Source: Bacillus sp. P14.5 (lineage in GTDB: Bacteria; Bacillota; Bacilli; Bacillales; Bacillaceae_B). Taken from it: 64,000 nucleotides of DNA. Below, piece after piece: positions 431 to 63,855 of this stretch. The translations under genes were made by a program, and so were the position numbers. Where the stretch lies: NCBI RefSeq assembly GCF_003316765.1, contig NZ_NIJF01000113.1, positions 1-64,000 on the forward strand. Direction: 5' to 3'. Under the pieces are notes generated by a model that did not search any database, was not told the DNA's origin, and saw only the letters and a program-made list of their open reading frames with translations. Each line of letters opens with the position of its first letter. Position 1 is the first letter of the stretch.

Positions 431-502
431 CAACAAAAGCACAGCTCTTTTCTACAAGATTTTGAATGCTATTCTTTATCCTCCTCCGCCTTTTACGTAG
501 AA

Positions 503-624
503 GGATTGGAGCGGAAGGCGTGCGACCTCCTGCGGGACTAGCGGGACAGTTGAGACCCCGCAGGCGAAGCCGAGGAGGCTCAACGCCCGCCCCGCGGAGT
601 CGCACGTCTGGAGCGGAAATCCAT
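503..624 (+). repeat. GC-rich dispersed element, type 1, flanked by type 2 ends
   Basis: A block of about 120 bases, far GC-richer than its surroundings, running from GGATTGGAGCGGAAGG to GGAGCGGAAATCC. Internal complementary arms (CCTGCGGG with CCCGCAGG, and GCGTGCGAC with GTCGCACG) suggest a folded structure. Flanks at about 440-470 and 635-660 resemble the ends of the type 2 element. The same block recurs nine more times, whole or interrupted, in this window in both orientations. Confidence 0.9.
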
Positions 625-703
625 TAATTTTAAGACAGCCACAATCTTTGCGAAAACACCTAAATAAAAAAAGCATCCGGAATTAACTCCGGATGCACTG
701 GAC

Positions 704-898
704 TTATTGTAACTGATTCAATTCGGTCTGTAATTCACGCAGCTGCTCTTGTTCTGCTGTGGTGGTGTTGGCATACGCAGAAGATAGTGCGTTCTTGGCA
801 CGTTGAATGGTTTGCTGGGTGTCTTCACTGCCTTCGGTTGAAGCATCCTTTGCTAATTGGACGTATTGACGGGCTTCCTGAAATAATCGGTTACCCAT
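704..898 (-). CDS. yitR: DUF3813 family small protein (YitR-like)
   Basis: A 64-residue protein beginning MGNRLFQEARQYV. It is short, Gln/Ala/Glu-rich and probably all helical, with no signal peptide or membrane segment. The start was placed at 898 because GGAGG lies just upstream; a longer frame to 928 lacks a ribosome site. It resembles B. subtilis YitR and, as there, lies near the yitU-yitV-yitW genes. The upstream 50-residue gene ends 2 bases before this start, so the two are probably translated together. Function unknown. Confidence 0.75.
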   Translation of the reverse strand: MGNRLFQEARQYVQLAKDASTEGSEDTQQTIQRAKNALSSAYANTTTAEQEQLRELQTELNQLQ

Positions 899-899
899 T

Positions 900-1052
900 T
901 TATATGCCTCCAAGCGAAGAATTTTCAACGTTCTCTAATTTTTTTGCTTCAGCTTCAGCCAGTGTGGAGTGGTAAGGGATACGGTCATCGTGTTTGGAGA
1001 CCGCGTCTTTCCCTTGTTGAACAAATCTTTTGGATTTATTTCCTTTGCCCAT
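900..1052 (-). CDS. small hypothetical protein, 50 aa
   Basis: The open frame reads MGKGNKSKRFVQQGKDAV and ends LENVENSSLGGI. An AGGGGTG ribosome site lies a few bases before the ATG, and its stop codon nearly abuts the start of the DUF3813 gene, whose ribosome site lies inside the last codons of this one. The tight coupling argues for a real gene. The protein is basic at the N-terminus and acidic towards the C-terminus, with no cysteines. I do not recognise the family. Confidence 0.65.
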   Translation of the reverse strand: MGKGNKSKRFVQQGKDAVSKHDDRIPYHSTLAEAEAKKLENVENSSLGGI

Positions 1053-1168
1053 CTTCAGCACCCCTTTGTCAATTTAAGCACCAAACCTTTGTGCTCATAT
1101 ATAGTATGAACGTAAAAGCGCGTGATTAGAGTAAAGAATTATTGCCAGCCTTGTAAATGTTTGTTTAT

Positions 1169-1990
1169 TCAGGTTAAACGGAGGTGGCTGGTCAGGTATG
1201 CCGCAATCCCGTCTTCTTCATTACTCAATGTAATGTCATCAGCGACGCTCTTCAAAGGTTCGATTGCATTTCCCATTGCGACCCCCACACCTGCGTACTT
1301 AAGCATTTCGAGATCATTATCCTCATCTCCGAATGCAATTATGCGGTCCTGAGGGATGCCCAGGTGGCTTGCCACTTTTTCTATCCCTACTGCTTTGTTC
1401 AATCCGCTCTTAACGATTTCAATGACATGCCATGGCGCTGCCCAGCGGCGGTGGTCGATGACTTCGGCGTGAACAGAACTTAAATGCTCCCTGATTTCGG
1501 TTACATGCTCTTCATCCGCATGAATGAGCATGGAAGTAGGGGAGTGGGTTAAATAGCTGCGTAAATCGCCTGTTGTGACATTTGGTTCTCCAAAATTAAA
1601 CACATCAATCAAGCGTTCGTCATGATAGTGGAAGTACACATCATCCATCACTTCAGCAATGATGTTCCTGAAATTGAAATCAAAATCATGGCAGGCCTGT
1701 ACAATCTCCCTTGCTACCCCGACTTCCATAGGTTGATGGAAAGTCTGCCAGTTTTTATCTAGAGGATGATGGACAAAGGCACCATTGAAGTTGACAATAG
1801 GTGTATTTAACACCAATTCATTGTAATACATTTCACTTGCTCTATACGGCCTTCCAGTTGCAATCATGATTTCATGGCCATGATCTTTCGCTTTATGTAA
1901 GGTCAGTTTGGTTTTTTCGGAAATCTTCTTTTCATCTGTTAAAAGTGTACCATCAAGATCCAGAACGATTAAATGCTTTTCCATACTCAT
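1169..1990 (-). CDS. yitU: Cof-type HAD-IIB family phosphatase (YitU-like)
   Basis: A 273-residue haloacid dehalogenase hydrolase. Motif I, DLDGTLL, is near the N-terminus with the nucleophile and acid aspartates; ATGRP follows as motif II; a lysine at about SGLNK and GDEDNDLEML form motifs III and IV. The inserted cap between them marks the Cof/HAD-IIB class, which dephosphorylates sugar phosphates and flavin-type phosphates in the cytosol; the substrate here cannot be read from sequence. The start at 1990 (MSMEKH) follows GGAG; the frame stays open upstream to 2248 but lacks a good ribosome site. Divergent from the yitV-like gene. Confidence 0.85.
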   Translation of the reverse strand: MSMEKHLIVLDLDGTLLTDEKKISEKTKLTLHKAKDHGHEIMIATGRPYRASEMYYNELVLNTPIVNFNGAFVHHPLDKNWQTFHQPMEVGVAREIVQACHDFDFNFRNIIAEVMDDVYFHYHDERLIDVFNFGEPNVTTGDLRSYLTHSPTSMLIHADEEHVTEIREHLSSVHAEVIDHRRWAAPWHVIEIVKSGLNKAVGIEKVASHLGIPQDRIIAFGDEDNDLEMLKYAGVGVAMGNAIEPLKSVADDITLSNEEDGIAAYLTSHLRLT

Positions 1991-2120
1991 CAAATCAATC
2001 TCCATTCTAAATTTTATATACAAGTATAGTGTATATGTTTCGTAAAACAGAAGTCCACCATGGTAAACTGATTTATACAAACTTTTACAGTAATTTAACC
2101 CTGATAAAGGAGTCATGCAG

Positions 2121-2888
2121 ATGATTACAATAAGAAAAGAGAAGATCGAAAATATACCAGTGCTGCATCTAAGCTTGCAGGAGACGTCAAATGAGAGGCT
2201 TCCTGCGGTATTCTTTATACACGGTTTTACAAGTGCTAAAGAACACAACCTCCATTATGCATATTACTTGGCGGAAAAGGGATTCAGAGTGATAATGCCT
2301 GACTCACTGCTTCATGGAGAAAGAGGGGAAGGATTAAACGAGAGCCGATTGAGTATGCGATTTTGGGAAATCGTCCTGACGACTATTGAGGAATTGGGCA
2401 TGTTGAAAAATCATTATATCAAAAGCGGTCTTATTGATGAACAACGAATCGGTACAGCCGGCACCTCCATGGGCGGTATCGTTACGTTGGGGGCTCTGAC
2501 AAAGTTTCCATGGATAAAATCTGCGGTCAGTTTGATGGGCTGCCCTTCCTATACAGCATTGGCAAATGCCCAAATCGGTTCATTAAGAAGAAAAGGATAT
2601 CAGCTTCCTTATTCTGATGAGAAACTCAATGGGCTCATGGAAATGCTCAAAGAATATGATTTAACATTACAGCCGGAAGTACTCGAGGGCAAGTCGCTCT
2701 TCTTCTGGCATGGAAAGCAGGACACCATTGTCCCTTATCAGCCGGCATATGATTTTTATAAAAGTCTTTCTGAAAACGGTAAACCGCAAATGAAGGATTT
2801 GCAATTTATGACAGACGAATCCGCAGGACATAAAGTATCGCGGGAAGGTGTATTGAAAAGTGTGGAATGGTTTGCAGAGAATCTCTAA
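2121..2888 (+). CDS. yitV: alpha/beta hydrolase (YitV-like esterase)
   Basis: A 255-residue alpha/beta hydrolase. HGFTSAKEHN near residue 30 is the oxyanion-side loop, GTSMGG carries the nucleophile serine, and HKVSREGV near the C-terminus supplies the histidine. There is no signal peptide, so it should be cytosolic. AAAGGAG lies 8 bases before ATG 2121; the in-frame ATG at 2115 is too close to it. It sits between yitU- and yitW-like genes as in B. subtilis. The physiological ester or peptide substrate is unknown. Confidence 0.8.
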   Translation: MITIRKEKIENIPVLHLSLQETSNERLPAVFFIHGFTSAKEHNLHYAYYLAEKGFRVIMPDSLLHGERGEGLNESRLSMRFWEIVLTTIEELGMLKNHYIKSGLIDEQRIGTAGTSMGGIVTLGALTKFPWIKSAVSLMGCPSYTALANAQIGSLRRKGYQLPYSDEKLNGLMEMLKEYDLTLQPEVLEGKSLFFWHGKQDTIVPYQPAYDFYKSLSENGKPQMKDLQFMTDESAGHKVSREGVLKSVEWFAENL

Positions 2889-2983
2889 TCAAAAGGCACT
2901 GCGAAGAGCCGTATCACTTTCTATACATAACATTCTTTGTTAAGATTAAAATAGAAAAAGGTGCAGATAAGGAGTGAAATTGA

Positions 2984-3292
2984 ATGGACCAGGAAATGAA
3001 AGACAGTATGATGGGGACACTTGAACAAGTTGTCGACCCGGAATTGGGAATAGATATCGTCAACCTTGGCTTAGTATATGATGTGGATTTAGATGAAGAA
3101 GGCAAAGCGACGGTTACCATGACTTTAACATCGATGGGTTGTCCGTTGGCAGGAACGATTGTGGATCAGGTGAAAGCAGCTCTTGCGGACCTTCCAGAAG
3201 TCAAAGAAACAGAAGTAGACATCGTGTGGAATCCACCTTGGAGCAAAGACAAAATGTCCAGATATGCGAAAATCGCATTGGGAATTCGATAA
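2984..3292 (+). CDS. yitW: MIP18/DUF59 family Fe-S assembly protein (YitW-like)
   Basis: A 102-residue single-domain protein of the DUF59 (MIP18, SufT-like) family. The diagnostic stretch DPELGIDIVNLGLVYDV and the conserved cysteine in TSMGCPLAG are present. Relatives assist iron-sulfur cluster assembly or delivery to apoproteins. AAGGAG is well placed before the ATG. An intrinsic terminator follows directly, so the gene probably ends the yitV-yitW unit. Confidence 0.85.
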   Translation: MDQEMKDSMMGTLEQVVDPELGIDIVNLGLVYDVDLDEEGKATVTMTLTSMGCPLAGTIVDQVKAALADLPEVKETEVDIVWNPPWSKDKMSRYAKIALGIR

Positions 3293-3298
3293 AAGTAT

Positions 3299-3340
3299 AA
3301 AAAAGCAGTGTCCATTCCTCTGAATGTGCACTGCTTTTTT
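3299..3340 (+). terminator. intrinsic terminator after yitW-like gene
   Basis: AAAAGCAGTG and CACTGCTTTTTT form a stem ending in a T-run directly after the yitW stop codon. Confidence 0.85.
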
Positions 3341-3407
3341 GTTATCACTGCATGGAAAACCAACTGGATGAACTTAGAAAAAGACGATTGATTCCTTTAT
3401 TCTCTGT

Positions 3408-3680
3408 AACATATTGTCTTTGAGGAACAACTATATACTCAAGCACGACATACTTACTGAACCACATTGTTTGTAAGAGGAATATTTAAATCATTTTGAT
3501 GGTTCTATTATAAAGTAAGGCTTTATCAGCGGAAGTATACTATTCCCCAACGTTGATTGAAGCGGAGTCGCGTGCCTGGAACGGAAATCACACTTTTTTG
3601 TTTGAAGTGAAAAAGGCAGAATCGTTCTTTGCAGTTAACGATTCTGCCTTTTTATTTTGTTCGACTTTTTCAGTGCCATC
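3408..3680 (+). repeat. dispersed repeat with terminator-like hairpin, copy A
   Basis: This gene-free stretch matches 37461-37825: shared blocks include TACTTACTGAAC, GATGGTTCTATTATA and AACGTTGATTG. It ends with a hairpin, AGGCAGAATCG with CGATTCTGCCT plus a T-run (3612-3653). The type 1 element seen at the equivalent point of the 37-kb copy is nearly deleted here, leaving only GGAGTCGCGTGCCTGGAACG. No ORF is supported. Confidence 0.75.
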
Positions 3681-3775
3681 CAAACAATAAGGCAGTTTCC
3701 TTCATTAATAACACTATTTTATTGTGCAGACGTTTATTGGACAGTTCTCACAATCAATCTCTTTTTTAAGGTAGT

Positions 3776-4405
3776 CTAAATGGTGGACAATGATTTTGTT
3801 TTTTCTACCGAAACGATTTTTTCTTTTCTCAGATCACTTAGCATTCGATTGACCACTTCCCTTGAAGTACCGCAAAAATTGGCAAGCTCCTGGTTGGTCA
3901 TAGGATAATCGATCAATATACCTTCCTCAACTGATTTTCCATAGCTGTTTGTGAGTCTGATCAAGGTGGAGTAAAGAGCCCCTTTTTTTCCATGCAGAAT
4001 AAGGTCGCGAAATTTCGTTTGGTTCTTGCGGCTCTGCAGCTGAACCCATTTCAGCCATTCCACAGTCAATTGAGGCTCATTTGAGAGGTTTTCTTCAAAA
4101 AGGTGTTTAGAGAGGATATAAACCTCGGAGTCCTCCATTACCTTGGCATTGAGCATGTAAGTGGATTCGTCACAAAATAACGTCAATTCTCCTATCACAT
4201 CACCAGTTGAGCAAATCCTTAAGCTCAGTTCCCTTCCATCGGGGATCACTTTTCCAATCTGAACCTTTCCGCTTTTTACAAGATAGAGCTCTTTGGCTGT
4301 CGCACCTTCCTGAAACAGATAGCGGCCTTTTGCAACTTTTTTTATCATTGCATTGTTTTTGAATAGGTTTTCGATCTCAGAAAAAGGATTTATGGGTTCG
4401 CTCAT
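3776..4405 (-). CDS. Crp/Fnr family transcriptional regulator
   Basis: A 209-residue protein with an N-terminal cyclic-nucleotide-type sensor fold (GRYLFQEGATAKELYLVKSG is typical of its first strands) and a C-terminal winged helix (MTNQELANFCGTSREVVNRM). No Fnr-type cysteine cluster is visible, so the effector is unlikely to be a [4Fe-4S] cluster. The start at 4405 has a strong GAGGTGAT site; the frame extends to 4423 without one. It stands alone. Target genes cannot be deduced. Confidence 0.85.
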   Translation of the reverse strand: MSEPINPFSEIENLFKNNAMIKKVAKGRYLFQEGATAKELYLVKSGKVQIGKVIPDGRELSLRICSTGDVIGELTLFCDESTYMLNAKVMEDSEVYILSKHLFEENLSNEPQLTVEWLKWVQLQSRKNQTKFRDLILHGKKGALYSTLIRLTNSYGKSVEEGILIDYPMTNQELANFCGTSREVVNRMLSDLRKEKIVSVEKTKSLSTI

Positions 4406-4445
4406 CTTATCACCTCGCCACAATTTAAGTAACGTAATTATATCA

Positions 4446-4638
4446 TACGGCTTTTCTCGTGAGAGTCACCTGAAAAGAAAAACTCTGCAGTCTGGTCTAT
4501 TAGCGGCAGTTTGCCTCCTCCCCGCAATTGCCTGAAACGGAACCTTTCATAAAGAAAAGAGCTGCTCACCGCACATAGAGAGAACAATCCTGGTATTCGG
4601 GGATATCCGAAAGCCACAATTAATTCGAAAAAAGCCAA
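4446..4638. repeat. type 2 terminal-inverted-repeat element
   Basis: The left end reads GGCTTTTCTCGTGAGAG and the right end AAGCCACAATTAATTCG then AAAAAAGCC, imperfect inverted copies of one another. The interior TATTCGGGGATATCCGAAAG matches the copy at 15.2 kb. No ORF. It lies between the Crp-like gene and uppP. Confidence 0.7.
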
Positions 4639-4641
4639 GAA

Positions 4642-4668
4642 AAAAGAACGGAAAAAATCCGTTCTTTT
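4642..4668 (-). terminator. intrinsic terminator of uppP
   Basis: AAGAACGG and CCGTTCTT form a stem around an A/T loop; read on the minus strand it follows the uppP stop and ends in a T-run. Confidence 0.7.
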
Positions 4669-5479
4669 AGAAAATCAGTACAGCTGCACCGACAATTACG
4701 CAATAAATGGCGAAAATCTTTAAATTGCCTTTTGCCATGATATTCATGAACCACTTAAGCGAGAAGTATGAAGCCACCAATGAGCCCAGGAAGGCCACGG
4801 TGTATGGCATGAGCATCTCTTTTAAGTTTTCATAATCAAGCAGGTCGGAAAAGCCGAGAATCATGCCTCCAAAACTGACCGGAATAAACAGAAGGAAAGA
4901 GTAACGCAGTGCTGTTTCCTGATTCATTCCTCTTGCCATCGCTGCGACAATTGTTGCACCGGAACGGCTGATCCCTGGAATCAAGGCAACTGCCTGCGCC
5001 AAACCTACGATGATGGCATCCTTGAAGGTAAGGTCGCCATCATGCTTGCGGCCTCGAAGGTTTCGAATCAGCCAGAGCGCAAATCCTGTAATAATCAAGG
5101 TGATGGCAACCGTTTTGATTCCTGAAAGCTCTTCAGAAATAAAATCACCGAATAATACACCAATCACCCCTGCAGGAATGGTTCCGACAATCAGGTAAAT
5201 AATAAAATAAAAGTCACGTTTAGTTTCCGGGGTCTTTTCTTTAAAATATCCCAGCCCATTTACTATAAGGCGCATAATGTCTCCACGGTAGATAATGAGC
5301 ACCGCAAATAAAGAGGCTGTATTGACAAGCAGTTCGAATGTCAATCCTGGAAGGTCTATATTTAGATAATGCTGGGCGAGTTGTAAATGTCCACTTGAGG
5401 AGATCGGAATCGGTTCAGTAAATCCTTGAAATAACCCAAGAAAAAGGTACTTCAGGAGCTCGTATGCAGTTTCTGTCAT
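4667..5479 (-). CDS. uppP: undecaprenyl-diphosphatase
   Basis: A 270-residue polytopic membrane protein of the BacA/UppP family. It carries the two family signatures: [14 protein letters not shown] near the N-terminus (with the catalytic glutamate) and GISRSGATI in the middle (with the catalytic arginine). The enzyme recycles undecaprenyl pyrophosphate to the lipid carrier used for peptidoglycan and teichoic acid synthesis; loss or overexpression affects bacitracin sensitivity in relatives. Start 5479 follows GGAGG; an ATG 30 bases upstream lacks a site. [10 protein letters not shown] departs slightly from the commoner FLPVSSTGHL. Confidence 0.9.
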
Positions 5480-5789
5480 TTGTTTTCCTCCATAGAAAAA
5501 TTTCTTCACATCTATCTATTTAACAACAAAGAGCGGATACCTGCAAGACAAAACTGAACAGCCTGACAGAGAAGTAATGACATGAAGTGATTTTTCAGTA
5601 TAGCACAGCATCCATCCCGGAGCTTTGATAACAGCATGTTCTTTGTTGGAGATTTAATGTCTCGCAATGGCAATAAAAGCCGCGAATCTTTTTGTTCAAT
5701 GAATGTCATAGTAAGTATAAGCGATTCATCAAATCGCCCTTCGTTAGAGTCTGTTTAAAAAGGAAATTTGCATTAAGGGAGGGACTGAA
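5480..5789. other. intergenic region without a supported gene
   Basis: A gap between the divergent uppP and yjzC genes. A 65-codon minus-strand frame at 5512-5709 has no convincing start site or family resemblance and was not called. The gap should hold promoters for both neighbours, but none stands out. Confidence 0.5.
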
Positions 5790-5972
5790 ATGGGCCAGTC
5801 AAGACAATTTCGCTCAGGACAAAAAGCGCCGAATAACGGCATCTATCTCGAGATAGGTGAAACAGGGAGCGGTGTCATGAACCCGAAGAAAGTCAAACTC
5901 AAAGCCGGAGACCGCTTTCCGGAAACCTCGAATGACAAACGTTATTGGACATATATGCCTAAGACTCAATAG
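5790..5972 (+). CDS. yjzC: YjzC family small protein
   Basis: A 60-residue protein that matches the YjzC family over its length: MGQSRQFRSGQKAPNNGIYL at the start and KLKAGDRFPETSN near the end. An AAGGGAGG site precedes the ATG. It is monocistronic, closed by a terminator, and lies directly upstream of clpB. Function is unknown. Confidence 0.85.
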   Translation: MGQSRQFRSGQKAPNNGIYLEIGETGSGVMNPKKVKLKAGDRFPETSNDKRYWTYMPKTQ

Positions 5973-12968: not shown

Positions 12969-13560
12969 AATAGCATCAAGTTCATTAATTGAAAAGGTGA
13001 TTTGGTAAAAAGTCTTTTTAAACAGCATTAAATCTTAAAATAAGAAACATCATGCGGTATAAAGGCAGTATTAACAGCATCAAATCATCAATACTTTAAC
13101 ATGATGCAGTAAAAAGCCGGTTTAAACAGCACTAAATTCACAAATGGAAAACATGATGTGGTATAAAGTCTTTTTAAACAGCATCAAATCCTAATATTAG
13201 AATTATGATGCTGTATAAAGGCGGGATAAACAGCATCAAATCATCAAAACTTTAACTTGATGTAGTAAAAGGTCCTTTTAAATAGCATCAAAACCAAAAA
13301 TGGAAAACATGATGTGGTATAAAGTCCTTTTAAACAGCATCAGCTCCTAATATTAGAATTATGATGCCGTATAAAGGCAGGATAAACAGCATCAAATCAT
13401 CGAAACTTTAACTTGATGCAGTAATAAGCCGGTTTAAACAGCATTAAGTCCATAAATGGAAAACATGATGTGAAAAGATCTTATAAACAGCATCAAATCT
13501 TAAAATCAGAAACATGATGCGGTATAAAGCCAGGATAATCAGCATCAATTCAAATGCTCG
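12969..13560. repeat. 52-bp tandem repeat array, 12 copies, three-variant higher-order pattern
   Basis: Units begin AACAGCATCAAATC and start at 12969, 13021, 13073, 13125, 13177, 13229, 13281, 13333, 13385 and 13437, all 52 bases apart, then 13486 and 13537 with small deletions. Each unit carries GCATCA near its start and TGATGC about 22 bases later, a potential hairpin. Three variants follow one another in fixed order, giving a 156-base higher-order repeat. No coding frame is supported. Sequence to 13620 is decaying repeat. Confidence 0.95.
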
Positions 13561-15142: not shown

Positions 15143-15311
15143 GGCTCTTTTCGTAAACTTTGTTGCTATTTGGAACTAATTCCAAAAACTAATCATCATT
15201 CATCTTAATAACCCGGTGATCATGAAAAGAAAAGAGCTACTTTCCCCGATTAGAGAGAAATCCCTTAGTATCCGGGGATATCCGAAAGCAACAATTTATG
15301 CGAAAACAGCC
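15143..15311 (+). repeat. type 2 terminal-inverted-repeat element between fabH and fabF
   Basis: The left end GGCTCTTTTCGTAAACTTTG continues TTGCTATT; the right end reads AAGCAACAATTTATGCG then AAAACAGCC. These are inverted copies of about 28 bases. The 169-base element has no ORF of its own. Its right end stops about 8 bases before the fabF ribosome site, and a spurious in-frame extension of fabF runs through it. Confidence 0.85.
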
Positions 15312-18957: not shown

Positions 18958-19320
18958 AAGAGGCTGGGACAAAACCGTATTTAAAGGCTCTCTTCGTAAA
19001 GAATGTAACTGAGTAAAAAGAATGGATTTCCGCTCCAGCTGCACGACTCCGCGGGGCGGGCGGTGAGCCTCCTCGGCTTTGCCTGTGGGCTCTCACCTGT
19101 CCCGCTAGTCCCGCAGGAGGTCGCACACCTTCCGCTCCAATCCGTATACGTACAGGAAAAAGCGGTAAATAACCTTAAGAGCAACATCTTTTAAATAGAG
19201 CCTAATAAAATAAAAAAACCGCATGAAGTCAAGTATATAAACTTGATCTCAAGCGGTTTTATTTTCGATTATTTCAACTTGAATCGATTAGTTTTCTACA
19301 TATGTCCCCAGCCTCTTTTA
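18957..19320 (-). repeat. composite repeat with GAGGCTGGGACAAAA ends (inverted copy)
   Basis: The ends AGAGGCTGGGACAAAA and GTCCCCAGCCTCTTTTA are inverted repeats. Inside lies a type 1 element in reverse orientation (19023-19143), type-2-like ends (AAGGCTCTCTTCGTAAAG and AGAGCAACATC), and a hairpin of ACCGCATGAAGTCAAGT with ACTTGATCTCAAGCGGT (about 19217-19258). A closely related copy in the opposite orientation is at 36411-36772. It separates convergent yjbA and trpS; the hairpin could act as a two-way terminator. Confidence 0.85.
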
Positions 19321-19475
19321 GTCTGTAAAATCACTCCTTACCTAAAACTGTTTCAAGTCATACATTGCTGCTTTAAGAAAAATCACAGTAAAAGGATTTC
19401 CCCAATATTAAGGTTTCTCTCTAATCACTTAAACAATCTGTGCAGTAAAACAGGTGAAGCCCCCTTAGATGTTTA

Positions 19476-20762
<1,287 letters not shown>

Positions 20763-29012: not shown

Positions 29013-29202
29013 GGCTTTTTTTGAAAACTTTGTTGCTTTTAATCATGGATTTGATAAGCTAATGCGCTAATGCCACTAAAATATCCTGGTAAGTTAAAAA
29101 GAAGAGAGCTCCTCATCCCGAATAAAGAGAATAACTCTGGCATTCGGAGAAAAATCCGGTTTTGTGGTTTTCTCGAAAGCAACAGTTTATGAGAAAAGAG
29201 CT
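29013..29202 (+). repeat. type 2 terminal-inverted-repeat element
   Basis: Left end GGCTTTTTTTGAAAACTTTG then TTGCTTTT; right end GAAAGCAACAGTTTATGAG then AAAAGAGC. The interior AGAGAGCTCCTCATCCCG resembles the copies at 15.2 and 41.9 kb. No ORF. Confidence 0.75.
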
Positions 29203-29354
29203 GTTCCCTCCATGTTAAATAGAGCATTCTAATATCCGGAGGGTAATTCCGGCTCGGCTCCAGGGGATTTTTTAAAACCCGATTTTATTTGTTACAACAG
29301 CCATTCTAAAAAAATTTGCTTCTATATGCTAATTAATACTTATCCCCTTAGAAA

Positions 29355-29630
29355 GATTGGATCGGAAGGCGTCCTCCTGCGGGACTAGCGGGACAGGTGA
29401 GAACAAGGTTACGTACCCACTGGAACGTAACCCCCAATCCAGTTCCAGCGCCCAGCCCCTCGGGGTCAAAGAACCTCAAGAGAATAAAAGGAAAGTGCGC
29501 ATTTTTTTCTCTTGAGAACATTTGCCTGTCGGGTCTGACCTGACCAGGGCGCTTCCACTTTTTATGCAGTCGAAGCCGAGGAGGCTCAACGCCCGCCCGG
29601 CGGAGTCGCGCGCCTGAAGCGGAAATCCAT
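29355..29630 (+). repeat. type 1 GC-rich element interrupted by type 3 element
   Basis: Type 1 sequence runs from GATTGGATCGGAAGGCG to GGGACAGGTGAGA (about 29403), then resumes at GAAGCCGAGGAGGCTC (about 29571). The 165 bases between contain a small hairpin, GTTACGTACCC with GGAACGTAAC, and the type 3 element (about 29441-29567). The gap 28974-30099 contains no supported gene. Confidence 0.85.
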
Positions 29631-30002
29631 ACTTTTAAAACAACACAATATTTGCGGTAAAAGCCTAATTAAAACAATTTAATTATTAAGCAGACACATA
29701 GTAATGTCCTTGTGTTGAGGCATGGTAACGAGAGGAGGAAAGGTGAAAGATTTGCGATAAACCGTTAATGGAACCGAGAATATTTTGATGGCTTAATGTT
29801 CCTCAGCTGACCTAGATAGTGTTGAAGAAAGTAGGCACTAAATGAGAAAGAGTTGGTTCTCATTTGACTTTTGTTCTCAATACGATACAATTAAATTGGT
29901 AAGAATACCGCTTAACATCCACTTTTTCCCACTTACGCTTTCACAACTTCTTGAAAGCAATTGAAAATCCCAAAATACAATTAAGTACATGACTTAGCTG
30001 CT

Positions 30003-30828: not shown

Positions 30829-31199
30829 GAAGGCTCTTTTCTAAGAGATTGTTGCTATTTTATCCTCCTCAACATTTTACATAGAACGATTGGAGCGGAA
30901 GGCGTGCGACCTCCTGCGGGACTAGCGGGACAGGTGAGACCCCGCAGGCGAATCCAGTTCCAGCGGCCAGCACCTAGCGGATTACTGTCTCCTTCCTTGC
31001 GATAAGTCATCATCGAATCGCTGTCGCTCTTCGTGATTCCTTTATCTCATTCAGGAGCCCTTAAATCCGTACGGTGCTGAACGGCCGCTTCCGCTTTTTA
31101 TGAAGCCGAGGAGGCTCAACGCCTGCCCCGCGGAGTCGTGCGCCTGGAGCGGAAATCCATTACTCTAAAAACAGCAACAAGCTTTGCGAAAACAGCCTT
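30829..31199 (+). repeat. type 1 element inside type 2 ends, with inserted type 3 sequence
   Basis: The outer ends AAGGCTCTTTTCTAAGAG then ATTGTTGCTATTTT, and AAACAGCAACAAGCTTTGCG then AAAACAGCCTT, are inverted repeats and are those of the type 2 element. Inside is a type 1 element (30888-31160) split by about 150 bases resembling type 3 (CCAGTTCCAGCGGCCAGCAC to GGCCGCTTCCGCTTTTT). A decayed reverse type 1 remnant sits just upstream (30727-30815). No gene is supported in 30673-31596. Confidence 0.85.
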
Positions 31200-36410: not shown

Positions 36411-36772
36411 AGGAGGCTGGGACAAAAGTAGAAAACTAATTGATGCAAGTAGAAATCATCAAAAATAAAACCGCATGAGATCAAGGTTATATACTTGATC
36501 TCATGCGGTTCATTTTTGTTAGTAGGCTCTCACCTTAAAGATGTTATTTTTTAGATTAGGTTATCCGCCAGTTCCTGATCGTAGGCGGATTGGAGCGGAA
36601 GGTGTGCGACCTCCTGCGGGACTAGCGGGACAGGTGAGACCCCGCAGGCAAAGCCGAGGAGGCTCAGCGCCCGCCCCGCGGAGTCGTGCACCTGGAGCGG
36701 AAATCCTTTCTTTATACTCAGACACATTCTTTTGAAAAGAGCTTTTTATAAGGTTTTGTCCCAGCCTCTTTT
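36411..36772 (+). repeat. composite repeat with GAGGCTGGGACAAAA ends (direct copy)
   Basis: The ends AGGAGGCTGGGACAAAAG and TTTTGTCCCAGCCTCTTTT are inverted repeats. A hairpin (ACCGCATGAGATCAAG with CTTGATCTCATGCGGT, about 36467-36510) lies near the left end and a type 1 element (36587-36706) inside type-2-like flanks follows. Order and orientation are the mirror image of the copy at 18957-19320. Confidence 0.85.
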
Positions 36773-37460: not shown

Positions 37461-37825
37461 GCATATTGTCCTAAGGAACTACGATATTTAAAGATCTATA
37501 TACTTACTGAACATTATTGTTAGATCTAGTATCATTTGAGACCCTCACTTATAATGATGGTTCTATTATAGAGTAAGGTTTATTCGCGAATAGCGTTCTT
37601 TTTCTCAACGTTGATTGGAGTGGAAGGTGCGCGACCTCCTGCGGGACTAGCGGGACAGGTGAGATCCCGCAGGCAAAGCCCAGGAGGCTCAACGCCCGCC
37701 CCGCGGAGTCGTGCACCTGGAACGGAAATCAACACTTTTTCATAAAACCTGATGTGAAAAGGCAGAATCGCTCTTTAGTGAGCCATTCTGCCTTTTGTTT
37801 TCTTCTGAACTTTTCAGTGGCTTCG
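37461..37825 (+). repeat. dispersed repeat with terminator-like hairpin, copy B (contains type 1 element)
   Basis: This matches 3408-3680 in TACTTACTGAAC, GATGGTTCTATTATA and AACGTTGATTG, and contains a complete type 1 element (37613-37730). It ends in the hairpin AGGCAGAATCG with ATTCTGCCT and T-run (37757-37796). Confidence 0.8.
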
Positions 37826-37921: not shown

Positions 37922-38034
37922 AAGAAGTTGATCACAACAAACATATACCCCTTTGTTTGACCGTGAAAAATTTCTCCCATCCCCTTTGTTTGTATAAGAA
38001 AACCCGTTATCTCAGGATAACGGGTTTTCTTTTT
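37922..38034 (+). ncRNA. roxS: RoxS (RsaE-family) small regulatory RNA
   Basis: A transcript of about 110 bases is bounded by the promoter above and a strong terminator (AAAACCCGTTATC with GATAACGGGTTTT, 37998-38034). It has no ORF but contains C-rich single-stranded motifs TTTCTCCCATCCCC and CCCCTTTGTTTG (twice), the seed type of RsaE/RoxS, which pairs with ribosome sites of central-metabolism mRNAs. The location next to yjbH and the yizD-type gene is that of roxS in B. subtilis. The 5' end is inferred from the promoter. Confidence 0.88.
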
Positions 38035-41860: not shown

Positions 41861-42048
41861 GGATGTTTTCGTAAACTCTGTTGCTATATAATATGAACTT
41901 CGTAAGTTAACGCCATTATTCACAGGATATATTTTGGTAAGCAAGAAACAAAGAGCTGCTTCCACGTTTAGAGAGAAAAATCTTTGTATCAGGGGAGAAT
42001 CCAGCACTGTGGATATTTACAAAAGCAACAATAAATGAGAAACCAGTC
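41861..42048 (+). repeat. type 2 terminal-inverted-repeat element
   Basis: Left end GGATGTTTTCGTAAACTCTG then TTGCTAT; right end AAAAGCAACAATAAATGAG then AAACCAGTC. The interior AAAGAGCTGCTTCCACG resembles other copies. The preceding sequence at 41645-41670 (GCAGGGACAAAAGTAGAGG) is a fragment of the composite repeat end. Confidence 0.75.
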
Positions 42049-42115
42049 TATTTAAGAGGCTTTTTCTATTTTTGCTTTAGAATGCGTTTTTACCTTCGTT
42101 CCCCTTAATGTAGGA

Positions 42116-42236
42116 GGATTGGAGCGGAAGGCGTACGATCTCCTGCGGGAGTAGCGGGACAGGTGAGACCCCGCAGGCGCAGCCGAGGAGGCTCACCGCC
42201 CGCCCCGCGGAGTCGTCCGCCTGGAGCGGAGATCCA
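42116..42236 (+). repeat. type 1 GC-rich element
   Basis: A full-length copy, GGATTGGAGCGGAAGGCG to CTGGAGCGGAGATCC, with TTTTAAAACAGTCCCGGCC after it as a weak type-2-like end. No gene is supported in 41645-42349. Confidence 0.85.
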
Positions 42237-42349
42237 CTAGTTTTAAAACAGTCCCGGCCTTTCTGAAAAGAGTGTAATAGAAAGATAAGACTTTCATGAG
42301 CATCTTTTTAACATAATCTGATAAGCCATCGTAAGAAGAGGTGAATGTA

Positions 42350-46089: not shown

Positions 46090-46429
46090 AAGTCCTCTCC
46101 TTTCTATAAAAACAAAAGTAAATAATATTTTTAATTCAGCGAATAATCTTTTAGGGGAGACATTTTTTTTAGAATTTGCTAGTATAATTAGGACTGCTTT
46201 AGTGACCTTAAAGGATTATAGTTCAGGAGTACACACACAGAGGTGTGCCTGCTCCTCTTATAATAATTCTCTTTTCCTATATTTTTAAACGGCACTTTTC
46301 TTTTTTATTCCTATAAAGAAAGTATACTGAAGCTTCATGCTAAAATAGCAGTATTCGTATAGATTGCTGCTCTCGGTAAAATCCTAAGAGCCTGATTTCA
46401 CCCCTGGATACTATGAGGTTTCTCTCCAA

Positions 46430-46690
46430 ATGGCGTGGACCGCTCTTTTCGCAAAGAGTGCGGCTATTGAGAATTAATGGATTTCCGCTCCAGGCGAACG
46501 ACTCCGCGCGGCTGGCCGCGGGAATTGGATTCATGGTTGCGTTCCAGTGGGTATGTTACCTGGGTCTCACCTGTACCGCTAGTCCCGCAGGAGATCGTAC
46601 GCTTTCCGCTTCAATCCCCTGCGTAAAGGGGGAATGAAGGTAAAATCGTATTCTAAAGCAACAACTATTTAGAAATAAGCTCTAAATGGG
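46430..46690 (-). repeat. type 1 element (reverse) inside type-2-like ends
   Basis: Type 1 sequence on the minus strand spans 46478-46617 (TGGATTTCCGCTCCAGG to CCGCTTCAATCC). Its middle carries ACATACCCACTGGAACG, the same small insert as in the 29.4-kb copy. GACCGCTCTTTTCGCAAAG and AAAGCAACAACTATTTAG act as outer ends. Type 2 fragments continue to about 46795 and before it to about 46350; no gene is supported in 46090-46846. Confidence 0.8.
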
Positions 46691-46846
46691 GAGTAGCTCT
46701 TTTCTTCTTGCTTACCAGAATATTTCTGATGAGTAATAGCGCTATCTTACGAAGTTCGTATATAATAGCAGCAAAGTTTAAGAAAATAGCCTTTAAAATA
46801 GACACTTTAAAATAAACATTGAAACCGCAAGAAGGAGGGTATGCCG

Positions 46847-52644: not shown

Positions 52645-52770
52645 TCCGCATCGAGCTTCACCCTCAGCCTCTCTGGGTTAAAAAACCCAAAGAGAATAAA
52701 AGGAAAGAGCGCTTTTTTTCTTTAAGGGACATTTGCCGGTCGGGGCTGATCCAGGCGTTTGCGCTTTTAG
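52645..52770 (+). repeat. type 3 dispersed element, standalone copy
   Basis: CCTCTCTGGGTTAAAAAACC, then GAGAATAAAAGGAAAGAGCG and CATTTGCCGGTCGGGGCTG to AGGCGTTTGCGCTTTT. The same order of blocks fills the insert in the 29.4-kb type 1 element. A more diverged copy follows at 53060-53158 (CTTGGGGTTAAATAACAC to GACCAGGGGGATTGCGC). Between them (52860-53010) are AT-rich short palindromes. No gene is supported in 52491-53187. Confidence 0.75.
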
Positions 52771-57248: not shown

Positions 57249-57480
57249 GGCATTCTTTGAAAATTTTGCTGCTATTTAATTTTATTCGTAAGTGAACGCC
57301 CTGGTTCACAAAAAAGCCCCGGTAAGTAAGAAAAGAGATGGTCTTCCTGAATAGTGAGAAATACCTTAGTATCCGGGGAGAGCAGATCTTTTCTTTTCAT
57401 GATTACCGTATTTTTTCCTTCTTGGTATAGATATTTCTTCGTAATAGTATCAAATAGCAACAAAGTTTACGATAAGAGCC
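57249..57480 (+). repeat. type 2 terminal-inverted-repeat element
   Basis: Left end GGCATTCTTTGAAAATTTTG then CTGCTATTT; right end AAATAGCAACAAAGTTTACG then ATAAGAGCC. The interior TTAGTATCCGGGGAGAGC matches the 15.2-kb copy. About 230 bases, no ORF of its own. Confidence 0.8.
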
Positions 57481-58501: not shown

Positions 58502-58524
58502 GAAAAGGAAAGGATGTATTTCCC

Positions 58525-59421: not shown

Positions 59422-59456
59422 AAAGGGCCTTAAAGGCCTTTTCGGCTTTAGGGCCT
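59422..59456. terminator. hairpin between convergent MBL and DUF421 genes
   Basis: AAAAGGGCC with GGCCTTTT, and a second GGCC-containing arm following, form a compact hairpin in the 40-base gap. Confidence 0.6.
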
Positions 59457-59462
59457 AGTCAT

Positions 59463-60137
59463 TCAATATCCCTGCAGCAGTAATTCTTCTCCGTCTTTCC
59501 ACTCACCAAATAATATCTCTTGTGAAGAAGAAAACCCCTTTTTACTTATTTCATTCAACAGCCATTTTTCATCTATTGCAATCATCTTTAAATTATCATA
59601 GAGGATTTCTCCGTCCATAATAACTGATATTGGCATAGAGGGAGATGCGGAAGCAATATTTAAATCTTGTTTTTGGAGAGGGGCGTAATCAGGTTTCTTG
59701 ATTACACTCAGGCTGCCATCTGTCTCCAAGATAGCATATTCACACTCTCTGATAGAAAAGATGTCTTTGGCTCTCAGCAGCTGCTGCATTTGGTTTAAAT
59801 CCAGATGATTATTTTTGATTGCTTCAAACTGGATCTGTCCCTTTCGGATGATGATGGAAGGAGTATTTTCAAGAAAGTGTCTAACTCTTCGTGAGCGCTG
59901 AGTGGTAAGTTCCGTTATAAATATTAATGCTCCCCATAATGAGATTGCAAATAGAATCTCGATTACTCCACTTTTGTCATCATATAAAGAGTTTCCTACC
60001 AATTCCCCTAGAATGATAGCTGAAATGAAGTCGAAAGGAGTAATTTGGGAGATTTGGGTTTTTCCTAATATCCTTGTTAAGATAAGCAGTGCTGCAAATC
60101 CTACAATTAATTCGGATGCAATAGCCAAAAAATTCAT
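59463..60137 (-). CDS. DUF421 domain membrane protein
   Basis: A 224-residue protein with three N-terminal helices (LIVGFAALLILTRILGKTQI, DFISAIILGELVGN, IEILFAISLWGALIFI) and a C-terminal DUF421/YetF domain (PSIIIRKGQIQFEAIKNN, ECEYAILETDGSLSVIKKP). Intact, unlike the one in the spoVA operon, to which it is only distantly similar. TAGGAGA precedes the ATG. Role unknown; its family is common in spore formers. Confidence 0.85.
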   Translation of the reverse strand: MNFLAIASELIVGFAALLILTRILGKTQISQITPFDFISAIILGELVGNSLYDDKSGVIEILFAISLWGALIFITELTTQRSRRVRHFLENTPSIIIRKGQIQFEAIKNNHLDLNQMQQLLRAKDIFSIRECEYAILETDGSLSVIKKPDYAPLQKQDLNIASASPSMPISVIMDGEILYDNLKMIAIDEKWLLNEISKKGFSSSQEILFGEWKDGEELLLQGY

Positions 60138-60215
60138 AACAGGTCTCCTAATATCATTAATAATAGTATTACTTCATTCTCAACAAAAGAGTACCGCTTT
60201 ATTCATCTGCTCAAA

Positions 60216-60257
60216 CAGAAAAACCGTCTCCACGTATTGGGAGACGGTTTTCTGTTA
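60216..60257 (-). terminator. intrinsic terminator of yjcG-yjcF
   Basis: On the minus strand AGAAAACCGTCTCCC pairs with GGAGACGGTTTTTCT, ending in T-rich sequence after the yjcF stop. Confidence 0.85.
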
Positions 60258-60680
60258 GTTCAATATCTTTTTCATGGATTTATGAGGTATCCCTGCATCA
60301 AGAAATTCATCAGATGTAACGGAGTAACCTAATCCTTCATAAAAAGGGATAGCATGGGTCTGGGCATTCAGGATCAAAGCAGGCACATCCTTGCTGCGTG
60401 CATGTTCTTCAATGAAATCCATAATGACTTTCCCTGCGCCTTTTCCGCGGGTTTTTGCCAGCACACAGATTCGTTCTACTTTTCCTTGTCCGTCCTTTAA
60501 GCGGAACCTGCCTGCGCCAACTGGTTCATTCTCATCGTATAACACGAAGTGATCCGAGGTGTTTTCAAACTCATCTATTTCTTCTTCAAGGGGCACGTTT
60601 TGCTCATGAACAAAAACTTCTTTACGCACTTCCATTGCATCTTGAAGTTCTTTATCAGTTTCAGCCAGAATCATGTTCAA
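60255..60680 (-). CDS. yjcF: GNAT family N-acetyltransferase (YjcF-like)
   Basis: A 141-residue GNAT protein resembling YjcF: EVFVHEQNVPLEEEIDEFE, acetyl-CoA loop ICVLAKTRGKGAGKVIM. The start is TTG 60680 behind GGAAAGGA at 8 bases; ATG 60674 is too far from it. It starts 5 bases after the yjcG stop, so the two form an operon as in B. subtilis. Substrate unknown. Confidence 0.87.
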   Translation of the reverse strand: MNMILAETDKELQDAMEVRKEVFVHEQNVPLEEEIDEFENTSDHFVLYDENEPVGAGRFRLKDGQGKVERICVLAKTRGKGAGKVIMDFIEEHARSKDVPALILNAQTHAIPFYEGLGYSVTSDEFLDAGIPHKSMKKILN

Positions 60681-60685
60681 AGTGA

Positions 60686-61201
60686 TTATTCCTTTCCTAA
60701 GCGGAATGTTTCATAGACTGTCCAAGAGCCATTTTCAAGCTGATAGAGCAGGTGGAAACGGTCCACAGTTTCTTCATGGTCGATCCCTAACATGCGCAGG
60801 GAACCAAAAACATCAGAGTGTTCGTCATCAGAAAGGTTCTGAGCAACAGTAATATGAGGAACAAATGCATATTCAGGTTCATGCCCATTGAAGTCGGCAG
60901 TATGCATGTCTTTATGCAGGCCTTCCAGTTCAGGTGTCGATTCTACTTTAAAGTAAATCACATTGTTAACCGGCTGAAATGAACTGATCTTATACACCTT
61001 CATATTAAATGGATCGTATTGTTTAGCGATTTGTCTAAGCTTATCTGCTATATCTTTGATACCACTATCATCTGTGCTGAAAACATTTTTCAGAGTCAAG
61101 TGAGGCGTGATCAAAGCATAATGGGGATCGTAACGCTTCCGGTACGCATTAGCTTTATCCTGGAGCGATTTAGATGGAAAAATAACGATACCATAATTCA
61201 T
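60686..61201 (-). CDS. yjcG: 2H phosphoesterase / 2'-5' RNA ligase family (YjcG-like)
   Basis: A 171-residue protein with the two HxT motifs of the 2H family, HLTLKNVF near residue 34 and HITVAQNL near 115. Such enzymes cleave cyclic phosphodiesters or ligate RNA ends. GGAGGTAC precedes the ATG on the minus strand. First gene of yjcG-yjcF. Confidence 0.88.
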
Positions 61202-61499
61202 ATAAATAGTACCTCCTTGGTCATGAAGTTCATTAAATTCAAAATAATTAAATATATCAGTTATTATATCACAAAAAAAGAGGAAATTAACATAGAGCTA
61301 AAGGTGGTATTAATGAGAGCAGGAACTTTGTCTCCTTCCCCCCTGTATTAGAGCAGCCAGAAGGCAAATAAATTTTGGATCTGGCTGCTTCTCCCACTGG
61401 CAGCTTTTCAGCAGAAATGAAAAGTGGGAAAAACCTGCGGGTTTCTCTTGAATGAGACGAAATAACAGTTACCTTTTATTATCCCATATTTAGGTCTTC

Positions 61500-62225
61500 C
61501 TATGAGAACATATGCTTCATCGCACGCTTCAAGTCAGGCTGCCAGTATTTCCATGTGTGGCCGCCATCGAATTCTTCATAAAAAGAGGAGAACCTTTCCT
61601 TTTTGAAAACTTCATGTAGTTCTCTATTAGGAGTCAGGAAATCTGCAGTTTCCCCGTTGGTGGTTTTCACTTCGGTTTCCTCCTTGCCGATGATATGGTA
61701 AAGGTTCAGCAGGTGAGGCTGTCCATTGCGTTTTACTGCCTCAAGTACTTTGTCATTGACATAAGGGGACTGCATGATGACTTTACCGAACGTATTAGGA
61801 TACTTTAAGGCTGTCATCAGAGATACAGAGGCACCTAAGGAACTTCCCATTAACGCTCTACCCATTCCCATATGGTAAACAGGGTATTGATCATCCAGGA
61901 AAGGAACAAGCTCGTGCGCCAGGAAGCGGATATACGCAGCATTCTGCTCGCCATCAGGATGATACTTTCTTCTCCTGTCATGAACATCCTTATAAGGTAT
62001 TCCAACAATGATCATGTTTTCAACTTCCTGACCGCCGATTAATTCATCAGCCAGCCGTGGAAGTCTGCCAAGCTGAAAGTAGTCCTTCCCGTCTTGGCAG
62101 ATCAATAACGCGTGCTTATAGAGTGGTGAATAAGAGGGGGGCAAATAGACAAGCATATTTATTTCTTCATTCAATTCCTTGCTGAAGAGGCTGATTTCGT
62201 TGATTGTTCCTCTAGAAGAAGTCAT
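61500..62225 (-). CDS. yjcH: esterase family protein (YjcH-like)
   Basis: A 241-residue esterase-D type alpha/beta hydrolase: LVYLPPSYSP, nucleophile serine in LMGSSLGASVSL, and the catalytic histidine in DGGHTWKYW. No signal peptide. TGGAGGT precedes the ATG. Neighbourhood matches B. subtilis yjcH, with yjcG-yjcF just downstream. Downstream 61350-61480 has small hairpins (e.g. GCAGCCAGA with TCTGGCTGC) but no gene. Confidence 0.87.
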   Translation of the reverse strand: MTSSRGTINEISLFSKELNEEINMLVYLPPSYSPLYKHALLICQDGKDYFQLGRLPRLADELIGGQEVENMIIVGIPYKDVHDRRRKYHPDGEQNAAYIRFLAHELVPFLDDQYPVYHMGMGRALMGSSLGASVSLMTALKYPNTFGKVIMQSPYVNDKVLEAVKRNGQPHLLNLYHIIGKEETEVKTTNGETADFLTPNRELHEVFKKERFSSFYEEFDGGHTWKYWQPDLKRAMKHMFS

Positions 62226-62465
62226 TTTTATACCTCCAATGGATAGATTCCAATTTCAAATTCGGCCAATAATATAGCCTTCCAAAAAAGATTGTACCAT
62301 ACTCTATTTCCAAAATCCCTGCAACCGCTCACAAATGAAAGTATTTAGGTGGATAGGTTTAAAACCCGCCAGCTGGAGAAAAAGAAAAGAGGCTGATAGT
62401 TTTATAATGCATTAATTGTCAGTATAATATGAAAAAAGAGATATACAGACTTAGGAGGAAAAATA

Positions 62466-63020
62466 ATGACTAAAATTGTTCATTCAAAAGATGTTACATA
62501 TGCAGCCAGACAAAAACTGGAAGAGCGGGGCGTGTCGATACAGGATATAGCGGAGATTGTCTATCAAATGCAGTACCCTTACCACCCTGAACTCGAAATG
62601 GAGGACTGCATTGCAAGTGTTGAGAAAGTTTTGCTGAAGAGGGAAATTCAGCATGCAATCCTGGTAGGAATTGAACTTGATGTACTGGCAGAGAATAAGC
62701 AGCTATCAGAACCGCTTCAATCTATAGTAGAAACGGATGAAGGCCTTTTCGGTGTCGATGAAACCATTGCGCTTGGTGCTTCATTAGGATACGGAAGTAT
62801 AGCTGTAACCACATTTGGCCACCTGGATAAAAATAAAATCGGCGTTATACGGAAACTGGATACGAAAAACGGAAACGGAGTGCATACCTTCCTCGATGAT
62901 ATGGTCGCAAGTATCGCAGCCAATGCAGCGTCCAGGATTGCACACCGCCTGCGTGACATTGAAGAGCAATTCACTGATGAAGAAATAAAAGCGCATGATG
63001 AGGAGGAAATCATAGGGTAG
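62466..63020 (+). CDS. phosphatidylglycerophosphatase A family protein (YutG-like)
   Basis: A 184-residue protein of the PgpA/YutG family: RQKLEERGVSIQDIAEIVYQ, GVDETIALGASLGYGSIAVT and HTFLDDMVASIAANAASRI. Unlike E. coli PgpA it is soluble; the exact substrate of this branch is not settled. GGAGG precedes the ATG and a terminator follows. Confidence 0.83.
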   Translation: MTKIVHSKDVTYAARQKLEERGVSIQDIAEIVYQMQYPYHPELEMEDCIASVEKVLLKREIQHAILVGIELDVLAENKQLSEPLQSIVETDEGLFGVDETIALGASLGYGSIAVTTFGHLDKNKIGVIRKLDTKNGNGVHTFLDDMVASIAANAASRIAHRLRDIEEQFTDEEIKAHDEEEIIG

Positions 63021-63022
63021 AA

Positions 63023-63054
63023 GAAATCCCGCTAGTTGGTTAGCGGGATTTTTG
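63023..63054 (+). terminator. intrinsic terminator of YutG-like gene
   Basis: AAATCCCGCTA and TAGCGGGATTT pair around GTTGGT, then TTT. Confidence 0.88.
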
Positions 63055-63121
63055 TATGGACTTAGAAAACACAGGCGGAACACTTCACACTGGCGCTGGG
63101 AAAAAGCAAGGCATCAGAATT

Positions 63122-63397
63122 TCAGAATGTCTGTGTCCTGTTATTCTGGTGTTTCTTTGATGACTCATATTTATTGAGCAGAGATGGCCGGGGAACTCTG
63201 TCTGCTGGGAAAGCAGCCAGGATATTTTCCATGTTGAATGTCCGGATCTGATTCCTCAAGTAACAATAAGCTGTCAGGGATTCCTTCTCTGTTTTTAGAA
63301 TATAGATGGTTCTTTTACTGAACACATCTTCATCCGTTTTATAGATAATCTCAAGAGGAGTGTGATTGTGATATGCCTTACGTATGACCTTCTCCAA
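63122..63397 (-). CDS. small WYL-domain-like protein
   Basis: A 91-residue protein whose core reads LEIIYKTDEDVFSKRTIYIL and LTAYCYLRNQIRTFNMENIL, the strand pattern and AYCYLR-x4-RTF motif of WYL ligand-binding domains, without the usual helix-turn-helix. GGAGCGAC lies before the ATG on the minus strand. It may be a free-standing sensor domain. Role unknown. Confidence 0.68.
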   Translation of the reverse strand: MEKVIRKAYHNHTPLEIIYKTDEDVFSKRTIYILKTEKESLTAYCYLRNQIRTFNMENILAAFPADRVPRPSLLNKYESSKKHQNNRTQTF

Positions 63398-63549
63398 AAC
63401 CGTCGCTCCTTTTTTCTGGAGTTTTTAATAGTATACACGAACATGCGTTCTTTTATGCGTGATTTATTAAAAAAAGTTCAAAAGGTATATTGACAAGCAA
63501 TGAAATTTTCATATAATAGAATATGTAGCTCAAACAAATTGACTGCCAG

Positions 63550-63621
63550 GATCTGATAGTTCAGCGGGAGAATACATCCTTGACAGGGATGGGGTCGGGG
63601 GTTCGAATCCCTCTCAGATCA
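63550..63621 (+). tRNA. tRNA-Val (anticodon GAC)
   Basis: A complete 72-base cloverleaf: acceptor GATCTGA with TCAGATC, D arm GTTC/GAAT, anticodon stem CATCC/GGATG around loop TTGACAG (anticodon GAC), T arm GGGGG/CCCTC around TTCGAAT, discriminator A. CCA is not encoded. A terminator follows, so it is a single-gene unit. Confidence 0.93.
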
Positions 63622-63624
63622 TAC

Positions 63625-63663
63625 CAAAAAGGCGCTGCTTCTAATGAAGCAGCGCCTTTTTTT
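63625..63663 (+). terminator. intrinsic terminator of tRNA-Val
   Basis: AAAGGCGCTGCTTC and GAAGCAGCGCCTTT pair around TAAT, followed by a T-run. Confidence 0.93.
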
Positions 63664-63666
63664 CTT

Positions 63667-63855
63667 AGCTGTTTTCGCATATATGAATGCTTTCGATAAA
63701 ATCCCAGGAGCCGGATTTTTCCCCTTGGTACCAATAATTTTCTCTCGAAACGGGAAGAGCAGGTATTTTCTTTCATTATCTAAAGTTTATTTCAGTGTAA
63801 TATGGTTGTTTTTTTCGGAATTTGTATCAAGCAGCAACAAAGTTCACGAAAAGTA
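63667..63855 (-). repeat. type 2 terminal-inverted-repeat element (reverse)
   Basis: AGCTGTTTTCGCATATATG at the left and AGCAGCAACAAAGTTCACG then AAAAG at the right are the inverted ends; the interior read in reverse includes CGAGAGAAAATTATTGGTACC. It starts within the tRNA terminator tail. The final 140 bases to the window end contain no supported feature. Confidence 0.75.

Follow-up and report, generated by a model that had tools for sequence, protein, structure and literature searches.

The window analysed here, a 64,000-nucleotide stretch of Bacillus sp. P14.5 (positions 1 to 64,000 of contig NZ_NIJF01000113.1, our contig C39), carries a family of short elements that share one pair of inverted ends and fall into two types by their interiors, the type-1 interior being GC-rich and folding as a hairpin. 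The source genome is a draft assembly of 4.87 Mb in 121 contigs, with an estimated contamination of 6.4%. Both types are very probably miniature inverted-repeat transposable elements (MITEs) of one IS1595-family lineage, with the GC-rich interior as a separate repeat. That the elements are non-autonomous mobile elements of the MITE kind had been proposed in an earlier note made from the sequence alone, and we consider this reading sound because of 8-bp target duplications, an empty site in relatives, the lack of any element in 10 of 14 additional pairs of site and relative, and a partner in relatives that carries a transposase between these ends. An IS1595-family transposase, supplied in trans, would bind the ends and move any interior between them, duplicating an 8-bp AT-rich target. 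The hairpin would have been taken up long ago by an IS1595-type MITE, and the composite would then have spread.

The shared ends are inverted repeats of 25 bp, shorter than the 28 or so bases first estimated, and they start with GG, as in IS1595 ends. A pattern for the ends was searched for in the window, the whole genome and its relatives. The pattern, GGCTNTTTTCGNANANNTTGTTGCT, has 11 matches in the window at up to three mismatches and none in 100 shuffles; at up to two mismatches it has 324 matches in the source genome, and the reversed pattern, used as a control, has none. Matches were found in 12 of the 14 genomes of this search, ranging from 4 to 500 per genome, with 500 in genome G028. 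A scan of named genomes for the ends gave at least 114 stretches. Most come from genomes named as Bacillaceae; Paenibacillus tyrfis and Viridibacillus are also among the matches listed. In the first search of relatives, matches to the ends alone were mostly more short elements and not the insertion sequence (IS) sought. The viral contigs searched gave a single locus with no mate end. A type-2 element searched against phages and plasmids gave short, end-length matches plus one weak phage match elsewhere in the element, and the plasmid match in Cytobacillus solani lies inside a broken transposase-bearing copy.

Target-site duplications and empty sites, both named in the earlier note as checks, were found. 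Flanks were compared at 38 type-2 loci of the source genome, 36 of which have both ends. The 8-bp AT-rich flanks of these two-ended copies agree at 7–8 of 8 positions in 25 of the 36 (shuffled mean 2.5, maximum 10) and at all 8 in 15 (shuffled mean 0.7, maximum 6). Exact flank repeats of another length are limited to one of 6 bp, with none of 7, 9, 10 or 11 bp. Across all fetched loci, 149 two-ended elements, chosen for flank agreement at 7–8 of 8 positions, include 102 with exact agreement, and their duplicated bases are 92% A/T. At 15.14 kb, between genes that we take by eye to be fabH- and fabF-like, the flanks of the type-2 element join directly in G028 and G033, so that these two relatives have the exact empty site. 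Collinearity with the two genomes extends over most of the window (syntenic identity 73–90%), and 14 further site-by-relative pairs were aligned and scored for ends and hairpin (the 63.7-kb element is among the sites outside this set). Ten of these pairs have neither ends nor hairpin, two have a different family member (a different composite at 30.8 kb in G033, and 41.9 kb in G028) and two have a single decayed end (30.8 kb and 4.5 kb, both in G028); none of the 14 has the hairpin without ends at the same locus. Separately, a 3196-bp stretch of the source genome (L017) shares 97.9% identity with Rossellomorea vietnamensis CH40_1T (L248), far above the 73–90% of syntenic DNA; recent transfer, conservation and contamination are the alternatives.

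A transposase with the same ends, which the earlier note had suggested looking for, is present in relatives in the form of IS1595-family genes. The lead to these larger elements came from a 1118-bp element of P. tyrfis that contains, besides a CopZ-like gene, part of a transposase whose zinc domain is of the IS1/IS1595 type. Elements with the shared ends and an intact, open transposase frame were found in G024 (1482 bp, 344 codons), G009 (1665 bp, 344 codons) and G097 (2009 bp, 356 codons), each with flanks matching 8/8, and in G040 (1612 bp, 341 codons; flanks 7/8). A 1521-bp copy in G011 also has flanks matching 8/8, but its transposase match has two stops. Both NCBIfam (NF033547) and Pfam (PF12762) assign the partner transposase to the IS1595 family. 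A profile built from four transposases matched 46 of 101 genomes, many of the matches being short remnants. Elements of intermediate size occur between the transposase-bearing copies and the MITEs; one in G005, of 649 bp, has both ends, a perfect duplication and a transposase remnant inside. G028, with its 500 end matches, has transposase fragments only, and a search with the first query gave no match in G033 or G008. The hairpin was not found in the transposase-bearing copies searched for it.

Some IS1595-ended elements carry extra frames (L340 1299–3307, L257 1318–2982 and L175 2582–3699, the last with the CopZ-like gene of P. tyrfis); by eye we take one of the extra frames to be alpha/beta hydrolase-like and one to be lipoprotein-like, the latter without a family match. 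Long end pairs were also considered as transposons and rejected: L177 (2341 bp) holds host-like genes, L416 (2134 bp) holds unrelated frames, and L202 (5070–6738) is a MITE with these ends split by an IS3-type (rve) element.

The hairpin and the ends mostly occur apart, in different genomes (hairpin counts are lower bounds, with up to 150 candidates scored per genome). G027 has at least 148 hairpins and one end match, at three mismatches; G039 has at least 34 hairpins and 2 end matches, G025 at least 35 and 4, and G003 at least 14 and none. G059 has 2 hairpins among 150 of 218 candidates and 372 end matches at up to two mismatches. The source genome has at least 125 hairpins alongside its 324 end matches. 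The hairpins of G027 often lie in local clusters about 200 bp apart, minus copies and then plus (L358, L392, L394), and no such ends were seen in the 90 bp on each side of 30 of them. Integron attC sites, an idea raised by the folded arms and these clusters, were rejected on the rules for attC sites; the cluster inspected has no genes between its copies. This separation, together with the presence of the hairpin in other carriers, supports the suggestion of the earlier note that the interior is exchanged or captured cargo.

Fetched loci gave 166 hairpin matches, 146 of them with enough flank: 73 have both ends, 53 one and 20 none. About 7% of random positions meet the one-end threshold used here. 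Most of the loci were fetched through the ends or a composite query, so that these figures are not genome-wide shares; the 30.8-kb copy is counted twice. Among the 73 two-ended hairpin MITEs, the flanks agree at 7–8 of 8 positions in 40 (shuffled mean 2.7, maximum 9). Within this group of 40, 29 measure 183–244 bp, a shared arrangement that suggests one old layout.

Several observations weigh against the assignment of both types to one IS1595-family lineage. Type-1 flanks in the source genome (30 loci) agree weakly, at 7–8 of 8 positions in 5 of 15 two-ended copies (shuffled mean 1.05, maximum 4) and at 8/8 in 2 of the 15; this fits older or decayed copies. A clean duplication is missing from most window copies. 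The left spacers of the 40 hairpin MITEs, which are short, form 29 clusters and give no support for a single origin. Finally, no cognate transposase was detected in the source genome, a draft in 121 contigs with an estimated 6.4% contamination: its one profile match is a divergent IS1595, 36% identical to the first query, and none of the shared ends was found at up to five mismatches within about 1.5 kb on either side of it. The copies in the source genome are therefore probably orphans now. The window itself, described earlier as free of transposase genes, has no match to ISL3 or to the IS1595 profile, and the description holds for these two families, the only ones scanned for.

The hairpin has carriers other than IS1595-type MITEs. 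On two plasmids of Peribacillus sp. R9-11 it forms, with an IS1182-family transposase gene, a 1755-bp unit (98.9% identical), and a P. muralis plasmid has a copy of this unit at 90% identity. A stretch of about 80 bp of the unit also matches, at 79%, six plasmid records, which come from Bacillus subtilis, Priestia megaterium, Paenibacillus urinalis and Peribacillus frigoritolerans. The match sits after gnd in all four plasmids inspected, with a Tn3-family transposase gene downstream in two of the four, and we infer that this gnd-side hairpin belongs to a Tn3 transposon. In Priestia, the hairpin lies within a repeat of about 320–350 bp.

In the window, the hairpin also occurs in nested elements whose outer ends are of the GAGGCTGGGACA type, here called IS1272-like. 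One lies at 18960..19358 (minus strand) and has, inside the outer ends, an ACCGC..GCGGT hairpin, IS1595-type inner ends (16/20 on one side) and the GC-rich hairpin; a second copy, of 356 bp, lies at 36413..36768 (plus strand). With two copies from elsewhere in the source genome (L065 1340–1692 and L068 1339–1692) they make up four homologous elements of about 355–400 bp. Among ends of this type, only two perfect ones at 36.4 kb and one at 19.0 kb stand out; at up to three mismatches there are 5 matches against 2.4 expected by chance. Relatives carry a plain hairpin at these sites (G033 at 19.0 kb; G028 and G033 at 36.4 kb); this would fit an IS1272-type insertion that replaces an inverted repeat, although intergenic divergence blurs the junctions. 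The composites at 36.4 and 19.0 kb thus show that the window holds elements nested within elements.

Taken tentatively, and with somewhat less than even confidence, the hairpin could be a module in its own right that hitch-hikes in the mobile DNA of Bacillaceae and, in some genomes, spreads without IS1595 ends. IS1595-type MITEs, an IS1182-family IS, a Tn3-associated region and the IS1272-like composites would each have acquired it because of a structural role or a copying route of its own. A related alternative is that the hairpin is itself mobile, driven by dedicated machinery such as a REP/RAYT-type single-strand transposase, and that the MITEs are landing places. The abundance and clustering of the hairpin in G027, with its one end match, and the several unrelated carriers speak for this. 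However, a search of plasmids for the empty site of a lone hairpin gave none, no common neighbour gene stood out at the top of the list for 1.5 kb on each side of 30 G027 copies (no RAYT profile was run), and the single layout of 183–244 bp in 29 of 40 hairpin MITEs is unlike random landings. We regard independent mobility as possible, though on the unlikely side.

The GC-rich interior is a unit of about 120 bp that folds as one long rod, and the arms covary. In a set of 20 sequences, changes on both sides occur at 18 of 35 pairs. In 144 distinct sequences, aligned by fitting to the structure and hence leaning toward covariation, 94.0% of cells pair, both-side changes number 706 cells against 177 in shuffles, and covariation scores 0.410, compared with 0.128 when shuffled and at most 0.059 with the partners slid. 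Such a pattern would suit a functional RNA, for instance an mRNA-stability or attenuation element, that is selected and has spread by its usefulness. Two asymmetries point the same way: the plus strand of the window copy folds better than the minus strand (z −6.7 against −4.6), and G-T oppositions exceed A-C (101 against 61). However, G-U cells make up only about 2% (101 of 4914), the two strands of the L188 copy fold equally (both at −71.4 kcal/mol), Rfam has no match (the window at gathering scores, the L188 copy up to E 1) and copies turn over between species. Because G-U cells are so scarce, the data are explained as well by a hairpin at the DNA level, or by correction between the arms in which one is copied from the other, as by RNA. 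Of the RNA-like internal pairing first described, the pairing is thus strongly upheld and its RNA nature is not favoured over DNA; a selected RNA appears unlikely as the explanation of the spread.

MITEs commonly have different interiors between shared ends, and types 1 and 2 could be MITE families with independent origins in one transposon, the GC-rich interior being random filler that later became a repeat. Several other interiors were indeed seen between these ends. Against this, hairpins abound in genomes that nearly lack the ends, and covariation is unexpected of filler, which makes a filler origin quite improbable. Two further explanations can be dismissed. ISL3 elements have 8-bp AT-rich duplications and GG tips, but the ISL3 loci fetched from relatives all end differently, whereas IS1595-family genes have these ends, so that ISL3 is a scarcely credible source family. 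Likewise, many copies are intergenic, as ordinary terminators or chance repeats would be, but the shuffles and the reversed pattern gave no matches at all, and this, the 8-bp duplications and the empty site at 15.14 kb contradict that explanation and leave it next to no weight.

Several known systems resemble the IS1595-type MITEs described here. IS1595 insertion sequences have the transposase family of the partner, GG-starting ends, 8-bp duplications and, in several copies, extra genes between the ends; the window elements differ in having no transposase gene, and the transposase-bearing copies searched for the hairpin differ in not having it. A published counterpart is an IS1595-type MITE of Haloquadratum walsbyi, related to ISHwa6 and given as 165 bp with inverted repeats of 25, direct repeats of 8 and 7 copies (PMC3852290). 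Size, end length and duplication length are the same as here; the host is an archaeon, the copies are few, and the passage describing it reports no hairpin cargo. The MITE part of our system is thus a further member of a type in print for an archaeon, and the shared, covarying hairpin cargo, with its independence of the ends and its several carriers, is the unexpected part. The bcr1 repeats of Bacillus cereus are likewise short, dispersed and gene-free, and come from a Bacillus relative; their mobility is associated with TTTAT motifs and may be site-specific in mechanism (PMC6542083), and they differ from the window MITEs in having no IS1595 ends. TIMEs, which are Tn3-derived MITEs with mosaic derivatives, also have MITE ends with exchanged core regions but, as described there, Tn3 ends and 5-bp duplications (PMC4133298). 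REP/BIME palindromes are short intergenic hairpin repeats that form clusters of alternating orientation in the account given (PMC3733652); the hairpin here differs in length, at about 120 bp. Inverted-repeat-replacing insertion has been reported for IS1272 (PMC5678879); that paper was searched for GAGGCTGGG without a match. The 36.4- and 19.0-kb elements, which sit where relatives have the plain hairpin, and the hairpin-carrying IS1182-family unit of Peribacillus recall IS1272 and IS1182, whereas the nested elements of the window have no transposase. Among the listed titles and abstract openings of the open-access literature, none describes the hairpin or these MITEs in Bacillaceae.

The MITEs of the window measure 169–445 bp, and the features that follow are on the plus strand except where noted. 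All six type-2 elements reported earlier, at 4.4, 15.1, 29.0, 41.9, 57.2 and 63.7 kb, are present. The 169-bp element at 15143..15311 (ends 15143–15167 and 15287–15311; flanks AACCAAAA / AACAAAAA) is the sole type-2 element of the window with two clean ends and flanks matching 7/8, and it is the one with the empty site in G028 and G033. The element at 4451..4636 (approximate coordinates) has a decayed left end and a right end at 4612–4636. Those at 29013..29202 (190 bp, without a clean duplication; flanks 2/8) and 57249..57480 (232 bp; flanks 3/8) are both absent from G028 and G033. The element at 41861..42048 (188 bp; flanks 5/8) is absent from G033, and G028 has a different type-2 element there. 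At 63667..63857 (flanks 4/8), the outer (right) tip is decayed.

Type-1 elements had been credited with the same ends at 0.5, 30.8 and 46.5 kb. This stands in full for the 30.8-kb element (30832..31197, 366 bp), which has a perfect TTAAAGAA duplication and is clean at both ends (19/20 and 20/20 conserved positions), its hairpin unit being split by a third repeat. At 443..661 the left end of the hairpin-bearing MITE is decayed (13/20) and the right is clear (17/20); the element is absent from G033. At 46.5 kb the GC-rich element (about 46441–46681; ends 16 and 16 of 20) is nested inside a type-2 MITE that it interrupts (46347..46791, minus strand), and the site is without the element in G033. 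Further hairpin-bearing elements with decayed ends lie at 42076..42274 and at 29310..29665, the latter interrupted by the third repeat; among the GC-rich copies, those at 19.0, 29.4, 36.6 and 42.1 kb have one or both ends decayed. A GC-rich hairpin without IS1595-type ends lies at 37607..37736, and an internally deleted remnant at 3553..3592, the locus of which resembles that at 37.6 kb. The third repeat (CCAGTTCCAGCG... to ...CGCTTCC.CTTTTTAT) lies within the hairpin unit at 30943–31100 and 29400–29570, with a related stretch at 52665–52719. The window also has tandem repeats at 1–477 (53-bp period) and 12969–13552 (52-bp period), and Rfam matches to RsaE/RoxS sRNA (37922–38030), a T-box leader (20533–20757, minus strand) and a tRNA (63550–63621).

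The analysis names the transposon family behind a repeat whose ends number in the hundreds in many of the Bacillaceae genomes searched. Its sites can thus be annotated, and their presence or absence used for dating. The conserved hairpin common to unrelated mobile elements raises the question of whether a structural module travels between transposons, and by what enzyme.

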